Source: Planctomycetota bacterium (GTDB taxonomy: Bacteria; Planctomycetota; UBA1135). Taken from it: 64,000 nucleotides of DNA. The stretch lies in NCBI GenBank assembly GCA_008501825.1, contig QQUA01000004.1:248001-312000 (forward strand), in the 5' to 3' direction. The notes under the pieces were generated by a model that saw only the letters and a list, made by a program, of their open reading frames with translations, searched no databases and had not been told where the DNA came from. Both the position numbers and the translations under genes were made by a program. Shown piece after piece: positions 1-13,038 of this stretch (within the stretch, counting starts at the first letter, position 1; the number at the start of each line of letters is the position of its first letter).

Positions 1-1382
1 TCCAATCGGTAGCGAGCCAAATTCACGACAGCAGCCTCGCCGTCGGCCAGGAAGTAGGGCAACAACGTGCGCAAAGCATCGCGGCTTCCTCCACCATTGC
101 CGCGCAGGTCGATGACCAAGCCATCTGTGGTTCTGAATTCTCTCATCCGTCGATCCAAATCGGCCAAAAACTCCCGCTTGCTCGACATGCTTGGAATGCG
201 CAAATAACCAATTTCTTCCTTCAAGATTTGCGATTCCATCTCCGGCCAAGATCCGAAGATGGGCTTTTGTTCGACCACTGGAACGATGAGTTGCTTGTGC
301 TCCTTGCTGTTTAGCGACCTCAACATCAGCTTAATCCGACGTTTGGCTGGCAATCCCAGTTCCGTTCGCAAATAGACAATGTCTCGCAATCCACGAGCAA
401 TTCGCTCCTTGGCGAATTGAGGGGAAGAGTCGCAAATCACTCGGTCACTCGCTTCCAGCCACTTCTCCAGCGGCAGGCCGTCGATGCCCTCCAACACCGG
501 AAAAGCCTCGTCCAGAAGGCCGGAACGGTCGGCCCGGAATGCAAGCAGTTTTCCACCGATCCAGTGGGTCAAAAAAGGTGCATAGCCACGGAGGACCCAG
601 CGACTGCGAACGCGGGAATGGCCGTCTCCGAATAAAGCCAAAACTTTTTGAATTTGGGCGGCAAAGGCAGGAACGGTAGGCCTTTCGGGAATGCTGACCC
701 GAACCGCATCTAGCGCCCCCCGGTAGTCAATCTGCAATAAATCACGGTAGGCAAAGCGCTCCTGAATCAGCCATTCCAACTGACCCAAATCCTGTCGGAT
801 TTGCTCCGCCGAAAGTTCCGGTCCATTCAAGTTCGGCCATCTTGCCAGTACGGCAAACTCCGCTTTCATGACCAGCCTATGGCTCCGCTCGATGCGTTTG
901 GTCGAATCCATTGGAGTTCCAGATTCCACGACGAAGCGGTAGGCCTTGCGGTGACTTGCATCTCGTATCGCATCGCGCTGAGCTCGGGTCATCACCACAT
1001 CTTCCATCAAAATCACCTCACCTGTTGCAAGATCGATTAACTCCAGGTCGACGGTGCGCTCCAGCTTGATTCCCTTCAAATCCAAAGCCTCAACCAGATC
1101 TTCCTCAATTCTTTTGATGCCCTTATCTGGCCAAGTCTTTTCACAAAACTGAACCAGTTCAACCGAATCGATCCCGGCAACGGATTTCCATCCATACCAA
1201 GCATCCCCGATCTTGACTTCAGCACGTGGCCCCGGCCAACGGATGCCATCGAATGGCGATAACTTTTCGTACTCTTGGATTGTAAAAGCGAGTCGAGTTG
1301 GAGCCGTCATGGGGGCGGCTTGAGAAACCGAGGCGGCGGTAGAAAGCCAAACCGCCAGCCAAAGAAGCATGCAAGTTCTCAT
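1..1382 (-). CDS. S41-family (C-terminal processing / tail-specific) peptidase, secreted, C-terminus truncated by window edge
   Basis: Own reverse-strand translation from ATG at 1382: MRTCMLLWLAVWLSTAASVSQAAPMTAPTRLAFTIQEYEKLSPFDGIRWPG... (signal peptide) ... DGLVIDLRGNGGGSRDALRTLLPYFLADGEA (S41 GNGGG-type motif). Open to position 1, so it is not listed in the ORF track. Confidence 0.85.
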   Translation of the reverse strand, partial: MRTCMLLWLAVWLSTAASVSQAAPMTAPTRLAFTIQEYEKLSPFDGIRWPGPRAEVKIGDAWYGWKSVAGIDSVELVQFCEKTWPDKGIKRIEEDLVEALDLKGIKLERTVDLELIDLATGEVILMEDVVMTRAQRDAIRDASHRKAYRFVVESGTPMDSTKRIERSHRLVMKAEFAVLARWPNLNGPELSAEQIRQDLGQLEWLIQERFAYRDLLQIDYRGALDAVRVSIPERPTVPAFAAQIQKVLALFGDGHSRVRSRWVLRGYAPFLTHWIGGKLLAFRADRSGLLDEAFPVLEGIDGLPLEKWLEASDRVICDSSPQFAKERIARGLRDIVYLRTELGLPAKRRIKLMLRSLNSKEHKQLIVPVVEQKPIFGSWPEMESQILKEEIGYLRIPSMSSKREFLADLDRRMREFRTTDGLVIDLRGNGGGSRDALRTLLPYFLADGEAAVVNLARYRL

Positions 1383-1440
1383 CTAATAAAAGACTGAGAA
1401 AAGCACGATTCGACGGATAAAAATTCGGTATTTTTTCTCA

Positions 1441-3231
1441 ATGGGCAGAAATCGCCTTTCGGACCCGGAACTTTGGAGCATGGTGGATCGCCAGGCACCG
1501 GAGTTAGCGGACCATCTCCGGGCCCACCCGGAAGACAAGGATCGGGTAGCCGGGCTTCAAAGGGTCGTGGCGAACTTGTCTAATGCGGCGCCCAGTCCAC
1601 CCTGGAAAGCCCCGAAACGCATCGGTCCGTTCCGGGTACTGCGTACCTTGGGTGAAGGCGGAATGGGAGTTGTGTTTGAAGCCGAACAACAACACCCGAA
1701 CCGCAACGTGGCTCTTAAGGTGCTGCGCCCTGGATTTGCTGAGCACTACATTGAGCGCGAGGTTCAGGCGTTGGCACGCCTGGAACACCCGCATATCGCC
1801 CGAATCTATGACGCCGGCAAAGATGATACGGGCTTGGCCTGGTGCTCTATGGAAATTGTCCGCGGCTTGCCATTAGTTCAACATGCCCAAACCCTGAAGC
1901 TGAATCAACAAGATCGAATCCGCTTGTTTCTAAAAGTATGTGAAGGCGTTCAGCATGCCCATGAAAAGGGTGTGATTCATCGAGATTTAAAACCCAGCAA
2001 TATCCTGATGGACCCTGCTTCCGGCCCGAAGATATTGGATTTCGGCCTGGCGATGAGCGAAAGCGGCAATTTATCCCTTTCCGCGGCCACCGGCAATTTA
2101 GCAGGAACGCTAACTTATATGAGCCCTGAACAATTTGCCGGCGAAGTGGACCAAATTGACGAGAAAAGCGATCTTTATTCTTTGGGTGTAGTTCTCTTCG
2201 AATTGATTTGTGATCAGCTGCCTTTTAATCCTGAAGCGATGTCATTGCGCGACTATGCGCGAATCGCAGAATCTAGCGCCCCTCCCTTGGCAGGCATGGT
2301 TCACAAGCCTGCAGCCGGTGATTTGCAACAAGTCATTGCCAAAGCCATGCATCCTGACCGAAGCCAGCGCTATGCGACGGTCAATCAACTTAGAATGGAT
2401 TTAGAAAATTTTTTAACTGGCAAGCCGGTTTCGGCAATGGGAGTTCGTCCGGCTTATTGGTTTCGCCGCTTTCTTCACCGCCGGCGCGCCGGCCTGCTAT
2501 TGGCATTCTTCATCCTTCTTCTGAGCACGGCAGTCCTTTGGGTTTCTATATTTCCGGTTTCCTTTTTCAATTCGTTTCTTCCGGGGTGGTGGTCAACGAA
2601 AAGTCCCTTCGAGGGTTTGCGGTGGAACGGTGACGAGGCGGAAGTCCAAGTGGACGGCCAGTGGTATGGATTGGAATCCACGGACCGACTTTCTACCGAT
2701 TTTCTCATTGGCCGCTGCAAGCAATTTGCTGGTCCGTACCAGTGGAGGAAACGATTCTCGGAAGACTTTCAGCAAGTCTTGAATCGGTCCGGCTCTTTGG
2801 CCATTTGGAAGGTGGATTTAGTCCTGAGGGACTTGAAATCAGAGAATCTCATCTTGAAAGAAAATGTTCCCTTACTTTCAGGAAACCGTAGGCGTATTTA
2901 CGACAATCGCCATGCCATTCCCTTTGGGATTCTAGGTAAGGAGAAGAAAACATTCATCGTCTGGTTTGAAAGCTCGGCATGGGAACTTATTTCGGTGGAA
3001 AGCGCAGGCTATGAGGAAATGAACCGCACTTGGGCCCGGCTGGATCGCAAGAAGCGCCTTGGCGCGATTTCCAGCTATGACTTTCTAGTAGAGGTTTTGG
3101 GATACTCACCGCCGAAAAAATTGGATTTTGTTTTGCATCATCCGGAAGACGGAACCATCCGAAAATTCGTTGACCTGGATCGACTCTCCTACGCCCAAAC
3201 CTCAAGCACGACCATCCTTCCCTTTCAATGA
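1441..3231 (+). CDS. Transmembrane Hanks-type Ser/Thr protein kinase with extracytoplasmic C-terminal domain
   Basis: RTLGEGGMGVVFEAE, ALKVL, HRDLKPSNILMD, DFGLAMS, GTLTYMSPEQ; single TM (AGLLLAFFILLLSTAVLWVSIF); about 200-aa C-terminal domain. Confidence 0.95.
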   Translation: MGRNRLSDPELWSMVDRQAPELADHLRAHPEDKDRVAGLQRVVANLSNAAPSPPWKAPKRIGPFRVLRTLGEGGMGVVFEAEQQHPNRNVALKVLRPGFAEHYIEREVQALARLEHPHIARIYDAGKDDTGLAWCSMEIVRGLPLVQHAQTLKLNQQDRIRLFLKVCEGVQHAHEKGVIHRDLKPSNILMDPASGPKILDFGLAMSESGNLSLSAATGNLAGTLTYMSPEQFAGEVDQIDEKSDLYSLGVVLFELICDQLPFNPEAMSLRDYARIAESSAPPLAGMVHKPAAGDLQQVIAKAMHPDRSQRYATVNQLRMDLENFLTGKPVSAMGVRPAYWFRRFLHRRRAGLLLAFFILLLSTAVLWVSIFPVSFFNSFLPGWWSTKSPFEGLRWNGDEAEVQVDGQWYGLESTDRLSTDFLIGRCKQFAGPYQWRKRFSEDFQQVLNRSGSLAIWKVDLVLRDLKSENLILKENVPLLSGNRRRIYDNRHAIPFGILGKEKKTFIVWFESSAWELISVESAGYEEMNRTWARLDRKKRLGAISSYDFLVEVLGYSPPKKLDFVLHHPEDGTIRKFVDLDRLSYAQTSSTTILPFQ

Positions 3232-3243
3232 CCCCAACGCGTC

Positions 3244-3765
3244 ATGGACGAGCAAGCCTTTCAACAACTCATTCAAACAGGTAGTCAAAAAGCTGCCGAA
3301 TTTTTGAATACCACCTATGGATCGGCCCTGGAGCGCTACTGCAGCAGTTTCTTAAGAGATCCGAGCTCGGCTGAGGATGTTGTGCAGGAGACGTTTCTGA
3401 AGTTGCTCGCCCAGGAGGAAGCCCCTCGCAACTTGCGCAGTTGGCTATTTTGGGTTGCCAGGAATGCATGCCTCTCTCGTTTGAATGAAGCTGGCAGAAG
3501 AAAGGCCGCTCCTCAGGCCATCGATGAGCTTGAACTCGTGGCAAGTGTGACCGGACAACTCACCAAACTTGTGCGAGCGGAGCAAAGGCGCGAACTTCAT
3601 CGCCAGCTCGCCAGGCTCAGCGAGGAACAGATTGAAGTGTTGCACCTGCGTTACAGCGAAGGCCTCAGCCGCCAAGAAGTAGCCGATGTCCTTGGGATTC
3701 CAGAGTCGGTGGTGAAGTCGAGGGCATACGAGGGAACCAAGAAACTCCGTGACGCCTTGAAGTAG
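3244..3765 (+). CDS. ECF-type RNA polymerase sigma factor
   Basis: DPSSAEDVVQETFLKLL (region 2) and LSEEQIEVLHLRYSEGLSRQEVADVLGIPESVVKSRAYEGTKKLR (region 4); 12 bp after the kinase stop. Confidence 0.92.
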   Translation: MDEQAFQQLIQTGSQKAAEFLNTTYGSALERYCSSFLRDPSSAEDVVQETFLKLLAQEEAPRNLRSWLFWVARNACLSRLNEAGRRKAAPQAIDELELVASVTGQLTKLVRAEQRRELHRQLARLSEEQIEVLHLRYSEGLSRQEVADVLGIPESVVKSRAYEGTKKLRDALK

Positions 3766-3833: not shown

Positions 3834-6188
3834 ATGTCCATGCAGCGGTGGACTGTCCTGTTTCTCGCCTTCCTGGCGATCTTGTGCGGTTGGATCGTCT
3901 GGGAAGAACCCACCCGAGCGGAAGGCCGAAGTTCGGTTGCCGCCGGCGGTTCGGACACCGCCTTCGATCAAACCGAACCCGAGGAGGAAGGCCGGGTGGC
4001 CGCTCCCCCGCCGCCAGGCTTTGCCGAGGGCCGCAGCCTTCTCGAGTCGGAAAGCGCCTCATCCCAGGCCAAAGCCACGACGAGCTGGGATCCAGCCAAG
4101 GCTTGCACCGTGCAAATCTGGTTGGGATCCGCCACCGAAGGGCTTCCGATCGCCGACGCGCCGATCGCCTTGCGCTTCAGTCTGGCGGAAGAAGGCAGCA
4201 AGGGAGTCTGGCAGGAAGCGGCGGGTCGCACCGGAGCCGGCGGCGGATGGCAGGTTGAGGTGCCGTTCGATTGCAAGAGCTTGATTATGGAAGCCGGGCC
4301 GGCGGCGGGTTTCGCCCGAACCCTTCACTTCGCCGATTTGGAAAAGCAGCCGTTGACCGCGGGAGGCTTTCAAGAATTCCGTTTAAAGGCTTGGGAAGGC
4401 TGGACTCTCGCCGGCCAAGTGGTGCAAGCCGACGGCCAACCGGTCACCGGCATGCACCTGAAAGTCAACCACGGAAGCCGTTCCCGGGTACCGGGCCCCG
4501 GAGCCATGCTTCCCGATTATCAGAACAAGGCCGAAACCGACGCCCAAGGGGCTTTTGAAATCACCGGCATGCCGCGAAGATTTCGGTTGACTATGGATTC
4601 AGAAGAATTCGGCGAGTTCCAACTCGATGCTTCCTTTCACGACTTGCCCAAGGAAGTGCACGATGTCCGCCTGGAATTATTCAGCATGAAAAAGGCTCAA
4701 CTGAGAATTGTCAGCGGCGGCAAGCCGGTGGCCGGAGCCACGGTCACCGGATACAGTTGGGCCAAACGCAGCCGCTTGGACATGCCCGGACTGCCACCGG
4801 AAGTCTTGCGGGTTCACCGTTTTCGCAGTTCTTCTCTGCCGGCAAAACAGAGCAATGCTCTGGGAGAAGTCACGGTGTTGTATGCCGGCGATAAAGGCTT
4901 GCGCCTGCATGTTCAACACCCGGATTATCTGAAGTGGTATGGCCGGTTTCAGGACGGGCAAGGCCAGATGGAAATCGAGCTGAAACCCCCTTTCCGGGTT
5001 TTGGGCCAAATTCGAGATTCTTTGGGAAGGCCGGTGGCCGGCGCCGAACTGCGCTTGCACCTGCCAGAGAAAAATCGCGGCCGCTTCCAGGAAAGCAAAG
5101 TGGCGACGGCGACCAGCGGCGCCGACGGTGCCTTTTCGATTCCTATCGAAGAAAAACTCCCCTTAGGGTCGGCGGTACTCTGCGCCCGAGCCGAGCACAT
5201 GGCGCCTTTGGTGATTTCGCCGCTGGCGATTCAAGAGGGCATGATTCCGCTGGCCCTGCAAATGGAGCCGGAACTCCAGATCGCCGGGAAAGTTCTCGAC
5301 CGGGAAGGCCAGCCTGTTGCAGGATTGCAGATCCGAGTCAGCGGCACAGAAGCTCTGGCCAAGCCCCCCTTTAAAAGCTTCGTCAATTTGGAACGCCTGG
5401 CCGGCCATCCGGCCAAGGCGGAAAGCGATGAACAGGGCAACTTCGCCGTGGGTCAATTGCTGCCCGGTTTGTACAAGGTAGAAGTTCGCCAGCCGGGCGA
5501 TCCTTCCCCCCTGGCGGAAATAGAACTTCGCGCCGGAGTCCAGGATGCCCAAATCGTATTGGGCCAAGGATTGGAAGACGATTTGAGCTTGCGGTTGCAG
5601 GTTCTCGATGGCGAGAGCCAGGAAGCCATGGATCGAATCGTGGTGGAAATTTGGCAAAGTCGAGGCCGGCGGATTTGGCGCCGCAGCCTTCATGGAAACG
5701 AAGGACGGTTTGAACTTCGCGGTTTGCCGATACCTTCCGGCCAAGCCTTCCTCCGGGTGGAATCGCCAGGCTACGGCGCTTGGCTCAGCCCGTCCAAACT
5801 CTGGTCTCCGGGAATCTTCGAATTCCAACTCTCCTTATTTCCCGGACGCCATCAAAATTTGCGGTTGATGGATGAAAAAGGCCGTGCGTTTCGGATCGTT
5901 GAGGTGGAAATCTTGAATTCCGAAGGCCAGAAAATCCCGTATGTGACTTCGGCCGGAGGGCGATCGCAAAACCCGACCATGAGCAGCAGTAGCCGTCTCG
6001 ACGCCAATGGCTGGCTTCGGCTCCGAAACTTGCCGGCGGAAACTTTGCAATTGCACTTCCTCAACCCTTATCGCAAGAAAAAAGGCGGTAGCGAAAAGTA
6101 CGGACCGAAGGAGTACCACCAGTCCTTGGATCTCGGATTTTCAACCGGCAAAAACCTGACCGTCACTTTGCCTTGGAAGGCCCGCTGA
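3834..6188 (+). CDS. Signal-anchored protein with repeated carboxypeptidase-regulatory-like domains
   Basis: N-terminal hydrophobic segment (RWTVLFLAFLAILCGWIV); repeated LAGQVVQADGQPVTGMHLKV / LGQIRDSLGRPVAGAELRL / IAGKVLDREGQPVAGLQIRV motifs. Confidence 0.75.
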   Translation: MSMQRWTVLFLAFLAILCGWIVWEEPTRAEGRSSVAAGGSDTAFDQTEPEEEGRVAAPPPPGFAEGRSLLESESASSQAKATTSWDPAKACTVQIWLGSATEGLPIADAPIALRFSLAEEGSKGVWQEAAGRTGAGGGWQVEVPFDCKSLIMEAGPAAGFARTLHFADLEKQPLTAGGFQEFRLKAWEGWTLAGQVVQADGQPVTGMHLKVNHGSRSRVPGPGAMLPDYQNKAETDAQGAFEITGMPRRFRLTMDSEEFGEFQLDASFHDLPKEVHDVRLELFSMKKAQLRIVSGGKPVAGATVTGYSWAKRSRLDMPGLPPEVLRVHRFRSSSLPAKQSNALGEVTVLYAGDKGLRLHVQHPDYLKWYGRFQDGQGQMEIELKPPFRVLGQIRDSLGRPVAGAELRLHLPEKNRGRFQESKVATATSGADGAFSIPIEEKLPLGSAVLCARAEHMAPLVISPLAIQEGMIPLALQMEPELQIAGKVLDREGQPVAGLQIRVSGTEALAKPPFKSFVNLERLAGHPAKAESDEQGNFAVGQLLPGLYKVEVRQPGDPSPLAEIELRAGVQDAQIVLGQGLEDDLSLRLQVLDGESQEAMDRIVVEIWQSRGRRIWRRSLHGNEGRFELRGLPIPSGQAFLRVESPGYGAWLSPSKLWSPGIFEFQLSLFPGRHQNLRLMDEKGRAFRIVEVEILNSEGQKIPYVTSAGGRSQNPTMSSSSRLDANGWLRLRNLPAETLQLHFLNPYRKKKGGSEKYGPKEYHQSLDLGFSTGKNLTVTLPWKAR

Positions 6189-6199
6189 CCGGTCGCGGT

Positions 6200-9100
6200 T
6201 CAAGCCGGGAATCGCTTGCGGTTCAACAAGTAAAACAGGGCCGGAACCACGATCAAGCTGAACAAGGTCGAGGCCAGCAATCCGAAAATCAAGGACCACG
6301 CCAGTCCTGAAAAAATCGGATCCAAGGTAATCGGCCAGGCGCCCAAGGCGGTGGTTCCCGCGGTCAACAGAATCGGTCGCATGCGCACCGCCCCGCTTTG
6401 CAGGATGGCTTCCCGCAAACCAAGGCCGCGCTGCAGTCCACTGGTAATGAATTCCAACAGGACCAAGGAATTGCGCACCACGATGCCGCCCAAGGCGATC
6501 ATGCCGATCATGGCGGTGGCGGTGAAAAACACCGAATCGGTATAGCCGCCGACTTCACCGGCGAAAAAGTGGTTCAACAACCAAAAGCCCGGAAGAATGC
6601 CGATGGCGGTCAAGGGAATCGCCATCATGACCAAGAGCGGCAAGGCCAGGGATTTGGTTTCTACGGTTAACAACAAATAAATGAACACCAGGGCAGCCCC
6701 GAAAGCCAAACCGAGGTCGCGGAACACGCGGATGGTGATTTCCCACTCCCCCTCCCCGGCCCAATCGACTTCGATTGCCGGAGGCATGGGCTTTTCCCGA
6801 AGAGAAGCTTGCAGGGAAAGAATGGCTTCGGCGGGAGCTCGCCCCGCCATTTCGCCGGTCACGTAAACCACCGGCCTCAAATTCTTGTGGTAATAAACCG
6901 TATCCATCGCCTCCGATTCAAACTCCCCGACTTCCTGCAAAGCCATCAAGCGGCCGTCGGAAGTTCTAGCAGCGAGCAGAGCCAGTTGTTCGGCGCCGGT
7001 TCGTTGCCCCCGGGGCAAGCGAATGCGGACAGGCAACGGCTGCCTTTCGTTGGGAAGTCTCAAGTGCAGTGGAGTGGCAGCCGGCACTTCCCCCAAGGCC
7101 AAACCCAAGATTCCGGCGACTTGGCTTTCATCCACGCCGTGTAAAGCGGCTTGACGGCGATCCAGGCGAAAGTGCAACCGCTGCTGGGGAGCCGCCGCCA
7201 TCACGTCCAAATCGGTCAAGCCGGGTTCTTCCGCCATCCGTTCCTTCAACGCGAAGCCGGCGTCGACCAAAGCTTGGTACGGCGTATCCTCCGCACCGCG
7301 CACTTCGGCGACTACGGTGGACAATACCGGAGGACCCGGAGGAACTTCGACGATTTGCAATACCGCCCCGTTCTCTTCCGCCAGGGCTTCTAGATCCCGG
7401 CGCATGGCCAAAGCCAAGGCGTGACTTTGCTGAGAGCGTTGTTCCTTCGGTAACAGCTTGATCCGGATGTCGGCCAGATGCGGCGCCTGCCGGAGATAGG
7501 AATGGCGCACAAGGCCGTTGAAATCCATCGGCGAAGCCAAGCCGACATAGCTTTGACAACTGAGCACTTCCGGCCGTGCCGCAAGAAAGCGCTCGAAATT
7601 CCGCACTACCGCGTCGCTTTGCTCCAGAGTATTGCCTTCCGGTAAATCCAGCACCAATTGCAATTCGTCCTTATTGTCGAAAGGCAACATTTTCAGCGGC
7701 ACCTTGCCAAGCAGCACCAAGGAGCCGGAAGCCAAAAACATGACCAAAACAGTAAACAAGAGCAACCAGGCTCTTTTGCCGGAAGCGATCCAGGGGCCGG
7801 CTAACCAACGATAGATGCGGCCGAATCCTTTCGGTGCCTGAGGTTCGCTCAAGGCGTCTTCAAGAACTTCCTCGGTTTCGACTTCCGAACCAGGCTTCTT
7901 CTTCGGCTTCAAAAGTACGAAGGCCAACCACGGAACCACGGAAAGGGCCGCCAAGGTGGAGGCGGAAACCGCCAGCGGCACGTTGGCCGCCATCGGCGCC
8001 ATATAAGGCCCCATCATGCCGGTGATGAAGAACATCGGCAGGAAGGAAACGATGATGGTCAAAGTACTCATAATCACCGGCGGCAAGACTTCTCGGACCG
8101 CATCCAAGACTGCCCTCCGGGGTCGCCCGGGTTTGCTGCGAATGTGCCTTTGAATGTTGTCGACGTTGGCAATGGGATCGTCGACCACCAAGCCCAACGA
8201 CAAGATCAACGCGAAAAGGGTGACTCGGTTGATGGTATAGCCGAACATCCAATTCACGAATAAGGCCAGCGAAAAGGAAACCGGAACCGCCACCGCCACC
8301 ACCAAGGCTTCCCGCCAGCCCAAGGTGAACAAAAGGAGGATCACTACGCTGATCAAAGCGAAGCCGATGGAAGACAACAAATCATCCACCTTGCGATCCG
8401 CCGTGGCGCCGTAATTGCGGGTAACTTCCATTTCCACGCCGTGGGGAAGCACTTCTTCTTGCAAACGCCGGGCTTCGCTCAAAACTCGTTCCGCCACTCG
8501 AGTGGCATCCGAACCTTTTTGCTTGGAAATGGCCAGGGTGACGGCGGGCAAACTGTGGCCGGCACGCTCCGAGGCTCCCCCCCAAGTCATCCGGGTATAA
8601 CTTTCCAATTCCGCCGGTCCGTCTTGAATCTCCGCGATTTCCCGCAAGTGAACCGGCAAATCATCCCGGGTGGCCACCACCAATTCCCGCAATTCATCCA
8701 AACTGCGAAAACCGGAACCGGTCGCCACTTCCACCTGCTCATTCAACCGCTGAAACGACCCGAGCGCCGCTTGCACCTTGGAAGCGGTCAAGGCTTGTTG
8801 CACTTCCCAAAGGGTCAAGTCTCGGCCTTGCATCCGTTCCCGATCCAGCTCGATGCGGATTTCTCTCGGAGCGCCGCCATAGATCCCGGTGCGACTCAAC
8901 TCCGGCAAGGAGTCGAGTCTGGCTTTCATTTCTTCCGCCACCCGGCGAAGGTCGTATTGGTCATATTCCGGACCGTATAAGGTCAAAGTAACGATCGGCA
9001 CGTCGTCGATTTCAATCGGCCGCACCAGCCACCCCTGGACGATACTGGGGACTTGATCGAGATGGGATTCGATCCGGTTGCGCAGTTTGATGATCGAGTC

Positions 9101-9439
9101 TTCCCGATCCTGGCCGACGAAAAAGCGCACCGTGACGATGGCGCGGTCGCGGCTGGACATGGAATAGACGTATTCGACGCCGTCCAACTGCCAAAGGAGG
9201 CGCTCCAAGGGAGTGGCCACCAAGCGCTCCACTTCTTTGGCCGAGTAGCCGGGGACTTCGACGAATACATCGGCCAAAGGAACCACGATTTGCGGCTCTT
9301 CTTCTCTTGGAGTACCGAGCACCGCGGCGACGCCGAGCACCAAGGCCAACAAGAGAAGCAAAAGGGCGTTGCGGCCTTCCAAAAACCGGGCCACCACTCC
9401 AGCCAGAAATCCCCCGGCTTGTTTGCGTGTCTCTTCCAT
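6200..9439 (-). CDS. RND efflux transporter permease subunit
   Basis: 1079 aa with RND topology and motifs: VFVEVPGYSAKEVERLVATPLE, LGLVVDDPIANVDNI, GGIVVRNSLVLLEF, RMRPILLTAGTTALG. Confidence 0.95.
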   Translation of the reverse strand: MEETRKQAGGFLAGVVARFLEGRNALLLLLLALVLGVAAVLGTPREEEPQIVVPLADVFVEVPGYSAKEVERLVATPLERLLWQLDGVEYVYSMSSRDRAIVTVRFFVGQDREDSIIKLRNRIESHLDQVPSIVQGWLVRPIEIDDVPIVTLTLYGPEYDQYDLRRVAEEMKARLDSLPELSRTGIYGGAPREIRIELDRERMQGRDLTLWEVQQALTASKVQAALGSFQRLNEQVEVATGSGFRSLDELRELVVATRDDLPVHLREIAEIQDGPAELESYTRMTWGGASERAGHSLPAVTLAISKQKGSDATRVAERVLSEARRLQEEVLPHGVEMEVTRNYGATADRKVDDLLSSIGFALISVVILLLFTLGWREALVVAVAVPVSFSLALFVNWMFGYTINRVTLFALILSLGLVVDDPIANVDNIQRHIRSKPGRPRRAVLDAVREVLPPVIMSTLTIIVSFLPMFFITGMMGPYMAPMAANVPLAVSASTLAALSVVPWLAFVLLKPKKKPGSEVETEEVLEDALSEPQAPKGFGRIYRWLAGPWIASGKRAWLLLFTVLVMFLASGSLVLLGKVPLKMLPFDNKDELQLVLDLPEGNTLEQSDAVVRNFERFLAARPEVLSCQSYVGLASPMDFNGLVRHSYLRQAPHLADIRIKLLPKEQRSQQSHALALAMRRDLEALAEENGAVLQIVEVPPGPPVLSTVVAEVRGAEDTPYQALVDAGFALKERMAEEPGLTDLDVMAAAPQQRLHFRLDRRQAALHGVDESQVAGILGLALGEVPAATPLHLRLPNERQPLPVRIRLPRGQRTGAEQLALLAARTSDGRLMALQEVGEFESEAMDTVYYHKNLRPVVYVTGEMAGRAPAEAILSLQASLREKPMPPAIEVDWAGEGEWEITIRVFRDLGLAFGAALVFIYLLLTVETKSLALPLLVMMAIPLTAIGILPGFWLLNHFFAGEVGGYTDSVFFTATAMIGMIALGGIVVRNSLVLLEFITSGLQRGLGLREAILQSGAVRMRPILLTAGTTALGAWPITLDPIFSGLAWSLIFGLLASTLFSLIVVPALFYLLNRKRFPA

Positions 9440-9460
9440 CCCAACTCGTTGGCTAAAACG

Positions 9461-10483
9461 CTAAGGCAAACCTACGGTTTCCCGACCCTGCAGACCGGAA
9501 AGGATTTCTATGCGCTCCCCGGCGGCCGGCCCGGCTCGTACCGCCCGGCGCTGCCAGCGACCGTCTCGCTCGACCAGCACCATCTCCACCTGACCGACGC
9601 GGAACAAGGCGGCTTTGGGAACGCTGATTCTTTCCCGCTCCCCGACCGGATACTGCAAGATGCCGAAGGTGCCGGGCGCCGGTTCTTCTCCGGAGACTTT
9701 CAAGTCCACCGGAAGGGGCACCCGAATGCGAATGGTTCGACTTCGAGGATCGCTGCTAGGGGCCACTTCCTGCACCTGGGCTTGCCCTTGGCCGGCTCCC
9801 AATTTCCAAATCAACTCCGCACCCAAAGCGGCGTGGTCTCGATCCCCGACTGGAATGTGGGCTTCCAGACTCAAACGCATCGGATCGTAAAGGGAATAAA
9901 GAGGAGTCCCGGGAACCGCCAGATCGCCGGGCCCGACCAATCGCTCTTCCACCACCCCGTCCACGGGAGCTTCGACTTTGGCGTAGGAAAGATTGGTTTC
10001 CGCCACCGCCAGTATGGCCTTGGCTTGTTTCAGCGCCGTCTGGGCCGCATCTCGCTCGCTGGCCGGAGCCACTTTTTGTTGAAACAGCCGCTCCACCCGA
10101 TCGGCCTCGGCCTGAGCCAACTCCACCGCCGCCAATGCAGCGTCCCGATTGGTCCTCAATACTGCGGAGTTCAATTCAGCCAAGAGTTGGCCGCGGTGCA
10201 CTCGGTCTCCGACCTCGGCATGCACTTGCAACACCCGACCGGTCACTTCCGAGGCCACTTGGATGTGGTCCAGGGATCGAACCGTGGCGGTGACCTCTCG
10301 GAAGATGGCCACCCGTTCCCGCAAGGCGGAAGCCTGAGAGGCCGGTGCCGGGACTTCGGCAATGGAAGCCAGCTCGACCCCGTCGGCGGGATTTTGTGAA
10401 ACCGGCCCGCAACTTGCACCTGCTGCCAGGCCCAAGAAAAGAAGAAGCGATCTTTTCAAAGCTAACCAGGTATTCCTTGGCAA
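9461..10483 (-). CDS. RND efflux periplasmic adaptor (membrane fusion) lipoprotein
   Basis: Lipobox-like LGLAAGASC; lipoyl/hairpin/beta-barrel organisation (VTGRVLQVHAEVGDRVHRGQLLAEL, VDGVVEERLVGPGDLAVPGTPLYSL). TTG start overlapping arsR by 22 nt. Confidence 0.9.
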   Translation of the reverse strand: MPRNTWLALKRSLLLFLGLAAGASCGPVSQNPADGVELASIAEVPAPASQASALRERVAIFREVTATVRSLDHIQVASEVTGRVLQVHAEVGDRVHRGQLLAELNSAVLRTNRDAALAAVELAQAEADRVERLFQQKVAPASERDAAQTALKQAKAILAVAETNLSYAKVEAPVDGVVEERLVGPGDLAVPGTPLYSLYDPMRLSLEAHIPVGDRDHAALGAELIWKLGAGQGQAQVQEVAPSSDPRSRTIRIRVPLPVDLKVSGEEPAPGTFGILQYPVGERERISVPKAALFRVGQVEMVLVERDGRWQRRAVRAGPAAGERIEILSGLQGRETVGLP

Positions 10484-10770
10484 TGCTCGCGGATGCAGCC
10501 AATCAAGCGAACCAGGGCCTTGATTTGCAAGCGATAGATCATCCGCTGGCCATCCCGGTGGGCGGTCAAAATGCCATGCTCACGCATGACTGCCAAATGT
10601 TGGCTGGCCACCGGCTGGCTGCAACCGACGATCTCCGCGATCTCGCCTACGGAGCACTCGGTCTTGCTCAGAAGATCGATGATCCTCAAACGAATTGGGT
10701 GAGCAGCGACTCGAATGATCGGAGCTGCTTGGGTCAATTCGTCCATGCTCAGAAGATCGGCCGTAGACAT
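10462..10770 (-). CDS. ArsR/SmtB-family winged-helix transcriptional regulator
   Basis: AHPIRLRIIDLLSKTECSVGEIAEIVGCSQPVASQHLAVMREHGILTAHRDGQRMIYRL. Confidence 0.93.
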   Translation of the reverse strand: MSTADLLSMDELTQAAPIIRVAAHPIRLRIIDLLSKTECSVGEIAEIVGCSQPVASQHLAVMREHGILTAHRDGQRMIYRLQIKALVRLIGCIREHCQGIPG

Positions 10771-10778
10771 CTTGACTT

Positions 10779-10807
10779 TTGAATATACCCTGTGCCATAT
10801 GTTTCAA
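10779..10807. promoter_or_regulatory. Candidate ArsR-family operator (imperfect inverted repeat)
   Basis: TTGAATATAccctgtgccATATGTTTCAA, just upstream of the arsR start codon; A/T-rich ATAT-containing arms resemble ArsR/SmtB operators. Confidence 0.4.
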
Positions 10808-10833
10808 GGTCTATTTTTCCAGAAATCCAAATT

Positions 10834-13038
10834 TCACGAGGATTGAGCGGGAGCCGGACGGGCACGGCTCCGTGGCTTTAACCACTGACTCACACTAAAG
10901 ATCGGCCAACCAGGATGAGTGAAGGCCGGCAATACGAAGAGGTTGGCGATCATGGCGGAAAAGGCACCCAGAGCAGTCAAGGCGCCGAACCGAGCCGTCG
11001 GCGGGAACCCGGACAGGGCCAATACGGTGAATCCCAGCGACAAAGAAATCGAAGACACCACGGCAGCTTCCCCAACCCGCTCGAAAGCCTGGAAGCTGGC
11101 CCGGACACCGCTGCGACCCAAAGCGGCATGAAGGATGTGGAAGGTGTTGTCCACCGCCAAGCCGAGGACCACGGCGGCCACCATCACCGTGGCGGCATCC
11201 AGCCGGAATCCGAATAGCCAAGTGGCGGCCAGAGCCACGGCAACCGGGAATAAGTTGGTCACCAAGACGGCCAGGAATTGGCGAACCGTGCGAACCACCA
11301 ACAAAAACAGCAAGGTGGTGGCCACCACGGTTAGGGCCAGCGAACTGAACAAGGTGCTGACCAGTCGATCCTGCATGTCCAACAACAGAGGCAGGCTGCC
11401 CCCCAGGAGCACCTCGGCATCATTTTCCGCCGCCCAGGCGTCTCCGGCGGCTTGCACCGAGTCAATCATCTCGTGGGTCAAATACGAACCGGCGGTCAGC
11501 AAGCGAGCGGTCCAACGAGCCCACTCCCCTTCGACGTCCACCCGGCCGGCCTCACGAAGCAGGCGGTCGGCCACCACGCCGGCCCCGATCGGCACCACTG
11601 ATTCCAAATCGCGGTGGACCTCCACCGGCCCCAAGATCCCGGTGACGTGCTCCAACCGCAGGAGCCGCTGATTCAAATCGGTGCGCCGCAGCTCGCTGGC
11701 CCGCCAAGGCCGGCCGTCTTTGTGTCGAGCCATGACTTCCAACGTGGTCAAGCCACCGCCCTCGGCTTCGATCTCCAGGAACTGTTGCCGAACCGGATTG
11801 TGGGCCGGGAAATAATCGAGATTGCTGGCGTCTTGATGCAATCGGAAAGGAGCCATGCCTCCCAATACGAAAATCAAGACCGTGGCCGCTTGGACCGGAT
11901 AGCGCCAACGAAGGGAAAAGCGAACCGGCGCCCGCCAATTGCGGCCCGGTTTGGCGTTGGCCACCGGCATCTTCATCGGCAAACGCGCCAACAATTCCGG
12001 CAGACCGAGCAGCATCAACGGAGCGAAAATCACCATGATGCCGGCCACCGACAAACCCAAACGACGGACCGGTTCTACGTCGCTTAAGGCAAAGACCGAA
12101 AATCCAACCGCGGTCGTCACCGCCGCCAACAAGCCCGCCGGTAGTTTGTGTTTTCGGGCCAGTGCGGCGGCTTGTTCCTGAGTCGCTCCCTTCGCCAAAT
12201 GCTGGCGAAACGTCGCAACCAAATGCAAAGTGGAAGCCAGCATCAAAACGAAGGCGAGCGGGCCTCCGGTAACTAGAATCAAATTCGAAGGCCAGCCGAG
12301 AAAGCGGGATCCCGATCGAATGGCGCATAGGGCTGCAGCCGCCGGCAAGATGGCCAAAACGCCGAGAGATACGGAACGAAGCGCCAAAATCAAACCCATG
12401 AGGGCCACCACTCCGAGCAACGGAGCAAAAATATTTTCCACCTTGGCGGCTTCTTGATCCAAAGCTGCAGAAAGCATCGGATGGCCGGTAGCCCGCATGC
12501 GCAAACCGTGTTCCTCCGCTTCCGCCTCCAATTCGAACACCACGGCGGCCAAACGATTGCGGTCAATCTGGCCGGCGTCGGCGGAAAGGCGCAAAAAGAA
12601 ATCCGCCCGGGCAGGTTTCAGTTGAACCTGATTCAAACTTTGGGCCAGCGGGCGCTTTAAGGCTCGCTTGAAAATGTCTCGCGGATCTCCGCCGGGGTCC
12701 AATTGCAAGCGGAACGGGTCCAACAAAAAATCGGTTCCGGGAATCGCCAGCAAGCGAGGCCCCAAAGCGTGGAGCCACTGCATTTGCTCTTCGTCGTCGG
12801 GATCGAAACGATCCGCCCGAATCACCAGGCCTTCGTCCCCGCCGAAACGCTTGCGCAAGGTACGAAAACCGTCATCCACCGAATCTTGGCTGAGCCATAT
12901 GTCCAAGCGGTTGTCCGATGGCCATCCCGCAGCATAAACCGCCAAGCCGACGCAAGCTGCAAGCACCAAGGCCAGAAGCCCATAGCCAGGCAGTCGCTTG
13001 CGGGTCTCGGTGGTGAAGGTGGGAAGTCGGGAACGCAA
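10834..13038 (-). CDS. MMPL/RND-superfamily predicted exporter
   Basis: 734 aa, two RND-like halves: ILALRSVSLGVLAILPAAAAL..., VVLGLAVDNTFHILHA. TTG start with an in-frame stop just upstream. Confidence 0.85.
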   Translation of the reverse strand: MRSRLPTFTTETRKRLPGYGLLALVLAACVGLAVYAAGWPSDNRLDIWLSQDSVDDGFRTLRKRFGGDEGLVIRADRFDPDDEEQMQWLHALGPRLLAIPGTDFLLDPFRLQLDPGGDPRDIFKRALKRPLAQSLNQVQLKPARADFFLRLSADAGQIDRNRLAAVVFELEAEAEEHGLRMRATGHPMLSAALDQEAAKVENIFAPLLGVVALMGLILALRSVSLGVLAILPAAAALCAIRSGSRFLGWPSNLILVTGGPLAFVLMLASTLHLVATFRQHLAKGATQEQAAALARKHKLPAGLLAAVTTAVGFSVFALSDVEPVRRLGLSVAGIMVIFAPLMLLGLPELLARLPMKMPVANAKPGRNWRAPVRFSLRWRYPVQAATVLIFVLGGMAPFRLHQDASNLDYFPAHNPVRQQFLEIEAEGGGLTTLEVMARHKDGRPWRASELRRTDLNQRLLRLEHVTGILGPVEVHRDLESVVPIGAGVVADRLLREAGRVDVEGEWARWTARLLTAGSYLTHEMIDSVQAAGDAWAAENDAEVLLGGSLPLLLDMQDRLVSTLFSSLALTVVATTLLFLLVVRTVRQFLAVLVTNLFPVAVALAATWLFGFRLDAATVMVAAVVLGLAVDNTFHILHAALGRSGVRASFQAFERVGEAAVVSSISLSLGFTVLALSGFPPTARFGALTALGAFSAMIANLFVLPAFTHPGWPIFSVSQWLKPRSRARPAPAQSS

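Follow-up and report, generated by a model that had tools for sequence, protein, structure and literature searches.

The locus described here raises the question of why an exported protease and a membrane Ser/Thr kinase, encoded back to back, carry the same extracytoplasmic domain, and of what this arrangement means for the ECF sigma factor gene that follows the kinase. The locus lies at the start of the window, the whole 64,000-nucleotide stretch of DNA that was analyzed. Its features are listed below by position in the window.

3..1382, minus strand: 5' part of the gene for an exported S41 protease (CPAF/IRBP-like, Ser-His type; Pfam Peptidase_S41, E=8e-24)
1317..1382, minus strand: putative signal peptide of the protease, residues 1-22, MRTCMLLWLAVWLSTAASVSQA (read from the sequence)
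948..1259, minus strand: shared domain of the protease, most likely PDZ-like, residues 42-145 (BLASTP; AlphaFold2 strands and helices at 42-139 in the relative L071)
273..569, minus strand: internal PDZ-like domain of the protease, about residues 272-370 (hhalign; AlphaFold2 element order)
1383..1440, no strand: divergent intergenic region of protease and kinase, 58 bp between start codons (sequence)
1441..3231, plus strand: membrane Hanks-type Ser/Thr kinase with the shared, most likely PDZ-like, domain as ectodomain, 596 aa (Pkinase, E=9e-46)
1459..1584, plus strand: cytoplasmic N-terminal motif of the kinase (SDPELWSMVDRQAPELADHLRAHPED..RV), residues 7-48 (alignment of module kinases)
1633..2382, plus strand: kinase catalytic domain, residues 65-314 (Pfam Pkinase)
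2488..2556, plus strand: single putative transmembrane helix, residues about 350-372 (seen as a hydrophobic run in the translation)
2602..2913, plus strand: shared domain, copy 1, kinase residues 388-491 (BLASTP; AlphaFold2 pLDDT mostly >90)
2914..3210, plus strand: shared domain, copy 2, degenerate, residues about 492-590 (AlphaFold2; profile of kinase tails)
3244..3765, plus strand: ECF sigma factor, 12 bp 3' of the kinase (Sigma70_r2, E=1.5e-14; TIGR02937, E=1.6e-25)

The protease gene encodes 638 aa in the genome and is cut by the window at residue 460, with the remainder outside. Its product scored 84.5 bits against PF03572, for which the curated Pfam cut-off is 24. Its placement among the CPAF/IRBP-like S41 proteases was supported by the conserved catalytic residues H255 and S545 and by the CPAF-like structure of a 44%-identical relative (L071), for which the best Foldseek matches in the PDB were 4ghn (E=2e-20) and CPAF itself (3dor, E=1e-19). 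D253, H255 and S545, the last of these outside the window, were invariant in 55/55 relatives, and because of this invariance the protease is predicted to be, and should be, active.

Direct BLASTP comparison of protease residues 42-145 with kinase residues 388-491 gave 37 identities over 104 positions (36%), with 61 bits and E=5e-14. When the protease segment was searched against the whole 5.7 Mb genome, the kinase was retrieved at E=5.9e-9 and all other matches had E>0.5; similarly, a domain profile found the protease and the kinase only, in a genome with about 70 Pkinase matches. Since just one of some 70 kinases has the domain, its position beside a domain-bearing protease is not a chance product of kinase abundance. 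These observations bear out the initial annotation, which had proposed that the two extracytoplasmic regions are homologous, that the start codons lie 58 bp apart on opposite strands and that an ECF sigma gene follows the kinase; the genome-wide profile recovered exactly the pair of proteins that it had compared. The homology reaches protease residue 145 and kinase residue 491.

The kinase has VALK, HRDLKPSN and DFG in its translation, as expected of the Hanks type (PF00069). Its ectodomain is longer than was first noticed, running from residue 388 to about 590 as a tandem of two domain copies. In an AlphaFold model of residues 380-596 (pLDDT 86.5, pTM 0.81), two repeats with the same order of strands and helices were seen. 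The second copy was also detected clearly by HMMER in several related kinases, and a profile of five kinase tails matched the domain with Prob 98.8 (hhalign), a comparison that is weaker than its E-value implies because 1 of 100 control shuffles scored high, over 4 columns only, as an artefact.

No family was assigned to the shared domain in Pfam or NCBIfam scans of the window proteins or in Pfam scans of the domain alignments, and none of the 27 domain-bearing sequences scanned matched a Pfam PDZ family. The domain profile found nothing convincing among PDB sequences, a plasmid search with the protease domain returned no match, and a PHROGs scan returned kinase matches only. The domain, which had been described as unrecognised, can now be placed through its homology to the protease's own internal PDZ-like domain. 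A domain profile built from 55 S41 proteins aligned with their internal region (residues 284-375) with Prob 94.7, E=6.4e-8 and a score of 43.1 (hhalign), compared with a maximum of 18.2 in 100 column shuffles and about 16 at most in non-overlapping 92-residue windows. The AlphaFold model of full-length L071 (pLDDT 89.6) covers both protease domains, and both have the order strand-strand-strand-helix-helix-helix-strand-strand. The same strand-helix order in the kinase ectodomain and in this relative further agreed with the proposed homology.

The internal domain lies just after the catalytic His255 of the protease. The catalytic His of CPAF, His105, lies immediately before its cryptic PDZ domain. 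That PDZ-like domain occupies CPAF residues 106-212 (PMC4734761). The window protease thus resembles the CPAF-type S41 peptidases (PMC4734761; 4ghn, 3dor) in its S41 fold, in its Ser-His pair and in the position of the His, directly ahead of an internal PDZ-like domain, and differs from them in its extra N-terminal PDZ-like copy and its kinase-ECF neighbors. Because it is homologous to the internal S41 domain at the position of the CPAF cryptic PDZ, the shared domain is most likely a divergent PDZ-like domain, and on the profile evidence the two have a common ancestry. Foldseek comparison of the kinase ectodomain with the PDB gave a best match of E=0.14 and none that was significant, and so did not confirm a PDZ fold; PDZ proteins were frequent among the weak matches, recurrently the PDZ structures of DegP, DegS, RseP, CtpA/CtpB and MucP.

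The domain constitutes a previously undescribed family with an invariant charged motif. R91, E94, D95 and R136 of the protease domain correspond to R438, E441, D442 and R483 of the kinase. They were conserved in 62/62, 62/62, 62/62 and 61/62 S41 copies, respectively, and all four were kept in 11/11 kinase first copies and in 6/6 other domain proteins. The second kinase copies have mostly lost them. These residues may be structural and not ligand-binding.

The distribution of the domain was surveyed in 154 genomes of the window's order, where it was present in 30, and in a sample of 392 Planctomycetota genomes, where it was present in 52. Within the window's own family, no further listed member has it. 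A domain match is present in Planctomycetes bacterium Poly30 (Saltatorellus ferox), which is of the same order and in which no kinase adjoins the domain-bearing S41 gene. Eleven domain-bearing kinases were found in Planctomycetota, with an ECF gene adjoining 11/11 and an S41 gene adjoining 10/11. The S41 gene is divergent from the kinase in eight of these ten loci and head to tail in two, where the genes overlap. The kinase and sigma genes often overlap as well, or are separated by 12 bp. In 9/10 loci the S41 protein visibly has the domain, and in the tenth the contig stops within the S41 gene. The S41, kinase and ECF neighborhood therefore occurs in ten Planctomycetota genomes, at least nine of them with the domain on both proteins. 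This pairing is a conserved module, and the reading of the locus as an envelope-signalling module has gained support accordingly. The recurrent pairing in at least nine distant genomes suggests that sensor and enzyme read the same envelope signal.

In a kinase-domain tree that included many other kinases of the window genome, the module kinases clustered with 3 label changes, compared with a shuffled mean of 9.3 and 0/500 shuffles as low as 3. The module proteases fell within one half of the S41 tree and did not form one clade, which was counted against the explanation that we prefer and likely reflects repeated loss or transfer. In a single-domain tree, the domain was too short to resolve its S41-to-kinase origin or its first context.

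Three contexts of the domain were distinguished. Most commonly it is N-terminal on S41 proteases; it also forms the ectodomain of Hanks kinases, and it is C-terminal or central in multi-pass membrane proteins encoded immediately 3' of an ECF gene. Some of these membrane proteins include a beta-lactamase-fold serine hydrolase, and the domain is found on separate secreted serine hydrolases as well. At one locus (L252 in genome G507, 5087-11651), an ECF gene heads an operon-like row in which three domain-bearing serine hydrolases follow, the first a membrane protein and the other two secreted, all three being of the beta-lactamase fold; ECF and membrane-protein pairs resembling this type were seen at L182, L184 and L186. 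This type of locus repeats the logic of the window locus with different parts.

So wide an attachment, to S41 proteases, beta-lactamase-fold hydrolases, kinases and multi-pass membrane proteins, is what would be expected if the domain were a generic envelope anchor that merely positions exported proteins and carries no signal, the adjacency of its bearers then reflecting domain exchange between neighbors. We consider this decidedly unlikely, given that the domain accounts for the whole ectodomain, or the greater part of it, in 10/11 kinases, that every one of these kinases adjoins an ECF gene and that the charged residues are invariant across contexts.

The distribution also bears on the idea that the protease and kinase domains interact directly or in mixed oligomers, protease held by the kinase then being the signal, for example when it is displaced by substrate. 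The co-encoding of partners with the same domain and the tandem copies in several members would suit such docking. On the other side, beta-lactamase-fold hydrolases have the domain too, as do ECF membrane partners with neither S41 protease nor kinase, and only about 10/61 loci of domain-bearing S41 proteases have a kinase nearby. Docking is unlikely in our estimation. Because most of these S41 loci have no kinase nearby, the protease evidently works without it, a point that was also counted against our preferred explanation.

That explanation, to which we would give about an even chance, is a shared-ligand envelope-sensing module, in which kinase and protease use their common domain to recognize one class of ligand and the ECF factor is under kinase control. 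A common ligand fits best because serine hydrolases of unrelated kinds and further partner proteins of ECF factors have the domain as well. The class bound by both domains would probably comprise peptide ends that lie exposed or misfolded stretches of envelope proteins. The protease domain would bring substrate to the catalytic site or gate it, and the kinase domain would report the amount of ligand, upon which the kinase would alter the activity of the adjacent ECF factor. The latter would then induce genes for envelope repair, among them, plausibly, that of the divergent protease. Serine hydrolases of the classes that bear the domain often act close to the end of a peptide, and recognition of C-termini by a PDZ-like domain would be in keeping with this. 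Ligand binding by the PDZ-like domain, the identity of the ligand, the kinase-to-sigma signalling and the regulon are the parts of this model that we infer. Besides a common ligand, the initial annotation had considered a decoy and protease control of the sensor, neither of which has gained specific support.

The S41 enzyme could instead act on the sensor, by cleaving or trimming the kinase ectodomain or another regulator and thereby switching the kinase on or off, with the shared domain as a by-product of duplication. The catalytic His and Ser of the S41 protease are invariant and ECF pathways are under protease regulation elsewhere (DegS/RseP, sigma-E), both in keeping with such control. We nevertheless judge it very unlikely, as no conserved cleavage linker was identified and the parallel type of locus carries the same domain on hydrolases that are not of the S41 family.

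For the step from kinase to sigma factor, the ECF43 systems offer a precedent. In the pairs EcfP/PknT and EcfK/PknS (PMC8999054, PMC13147305), a membrane Hanks kinase is likewise co-encoded with an ECF factor, and ECF43 factors are without the acidic DAED motif of sigma2.2 (PMC8999054), so that direct phosphorylation of sigma would supply the missing charge. As in the ECF43 systems (PMC8999054), the kinase and ECF genes adjoin each other here, with an overlap or close to one. The product of the window sigma gene has sigma-70 regions 2 and 4 only, as is typical of an ECF factor, and its sigma2.2 motif reads SAED, the E and D of which are retained in those module ECFs that were aligned; it therefore does not belong to ECF43. 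Because these acidic residues are present, a rescue of the ECF43 type is not supported, and we regard this mechanism as highly improbable. The window locus differs from the ECF43 pairs in its ectodomain and S41 partner as well.

Alternatively, the kinase N-terminal motif may bind sigma and release it upon phosphorylation. This motif was kept in 10/10 module kinases in the alignment, reading SDPELWSMVDR in the window and SDEQLWSWVDR and variants elsewhere, and is a possible sigma-factor contact. In 20 related genomes no convincing match to it was found, the query genome itself excepted. An anti-sigma zinc finger of the zf-HC2 type (HxxxCxxC) was considered for the kinase N-terminus and was absent from the window kinase by Pfam scan. 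A related kinase (L192, 7848-9701, minus strand) has an anti-sigma-type N-terminus, with zf-HC2, kinase domain and C-terminal shared domain, and adjoins an ECF gene without an S41 gene; its zf-HC2 and the N-terminal motif had no profile similarity.

In E. coli, the DegS/RseP - RseA - sigma-E pathway uses extracytoplasmic PDZ-type domains to sense envelope proteins and to control an ECF sigma factor. This pathway is summarised in PMC8103513 and PMC6411480. It differs from the window locus in that a protease cascade acts on an anti-sigma factor there and a Hanks kinase is the sensor here, and in that the domain here is not recognizable by sequence as a standard PDZ. The locus consists of S41, kinase and ECF genes only and is not a DegS-RseP-type pathway. 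In a survey of microbial PDZ proteins with 12 families, the ComP histidine kinase is the sole sensor kinase and no Ser/Thr kinase family appears (PMC6411480); ComP has a PDZ on a sensor kinase, as here, but is a histidine kinase with a standard PDZ, as opposed to a Ser/Thr kinase with a PDZ-like domain. PDZ domains are not mentioned in a survey of planctomycete Ser/Thr kinases that included the Saltatorellus clade (PMC11032199), and no description of the module was found in a search that covered mostly open-access and few subscription papers.

The signals of planctomycete Ser/Thr kinases, and of kinase-linked ECF factors beyond ECF43, are largely unknown. Here the ectodomain points to the signal, as the same domain sits on the neighboring protease, whose substrates can be sought, and PDZ-like domains gain a place on Ser/Thr kinases. 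The arrangement is suggestive of a simple design, with one recognition domain common to the detector and the repair enzyme. More tentatively, and leaning slightly against it, we propose a sensing principle of Planctomycetota in which a receptor and an effector hydrolase share a PDZ-like ligand domain and of which at least two versions, built from different parts, would have arisen; these would be, in the same tentative reading, a Hanks kinase with an S41 protease, and a membrane ECF partner with beta-lactamase-fold hydrolases. If true, the ECF system would measure exactly what the hydrolase handles.

Several further observations were made at this and related loci. An 8-bp inverted repeat, TGAGAAAA / TTTTCTCA, lies at window positions 1395-1402 and 1433-1440, inside the 58-bp divergent region; a scan of the locus for sigma-70 promoters and terminators gave nothing above shuffled expectation. 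A 784-aa exported protein with CarboxypepD_reg repeats is encoded 3' of the ECF gene (window 3834-6188, plus strand), and at L028 an ECF factor adjoining an S41 protease has related repeats fused to it. At L033 the S41 gene adjoins an ECF gene with a long extension. A domain-bearing S41 gene and a nearby ECF gene are each split over several frames at L034 (8900-11564), reflecting either decay or a low-quality assembly. Two of the domain-bearing S41 genes, L071 and L086, come from assemblies that carry the labels Acidobacteriota and Lysobacterales.

Outside the window, a gene of 190 aa (L005, 8891-9463, minus strand) lies directly 3' of the S41 gene with a 2 bp gap, and its product has TPR-like repeats and a membrane or lipoprotein-like N-terminus. 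It is possibly a protease adaptor like NlpI or LbcA. An S41 envelope protease with a TPR adaptor is also found in Prc-NlpI and CtpA-LbcA (5wql, 8sxe), from which the window locus differs in the N-terminal PDZ-like copy and the kinase-ECF neighbors. In L091, an S41 protease has a fused segment that resembles the 190-aa product (E=1e-6).
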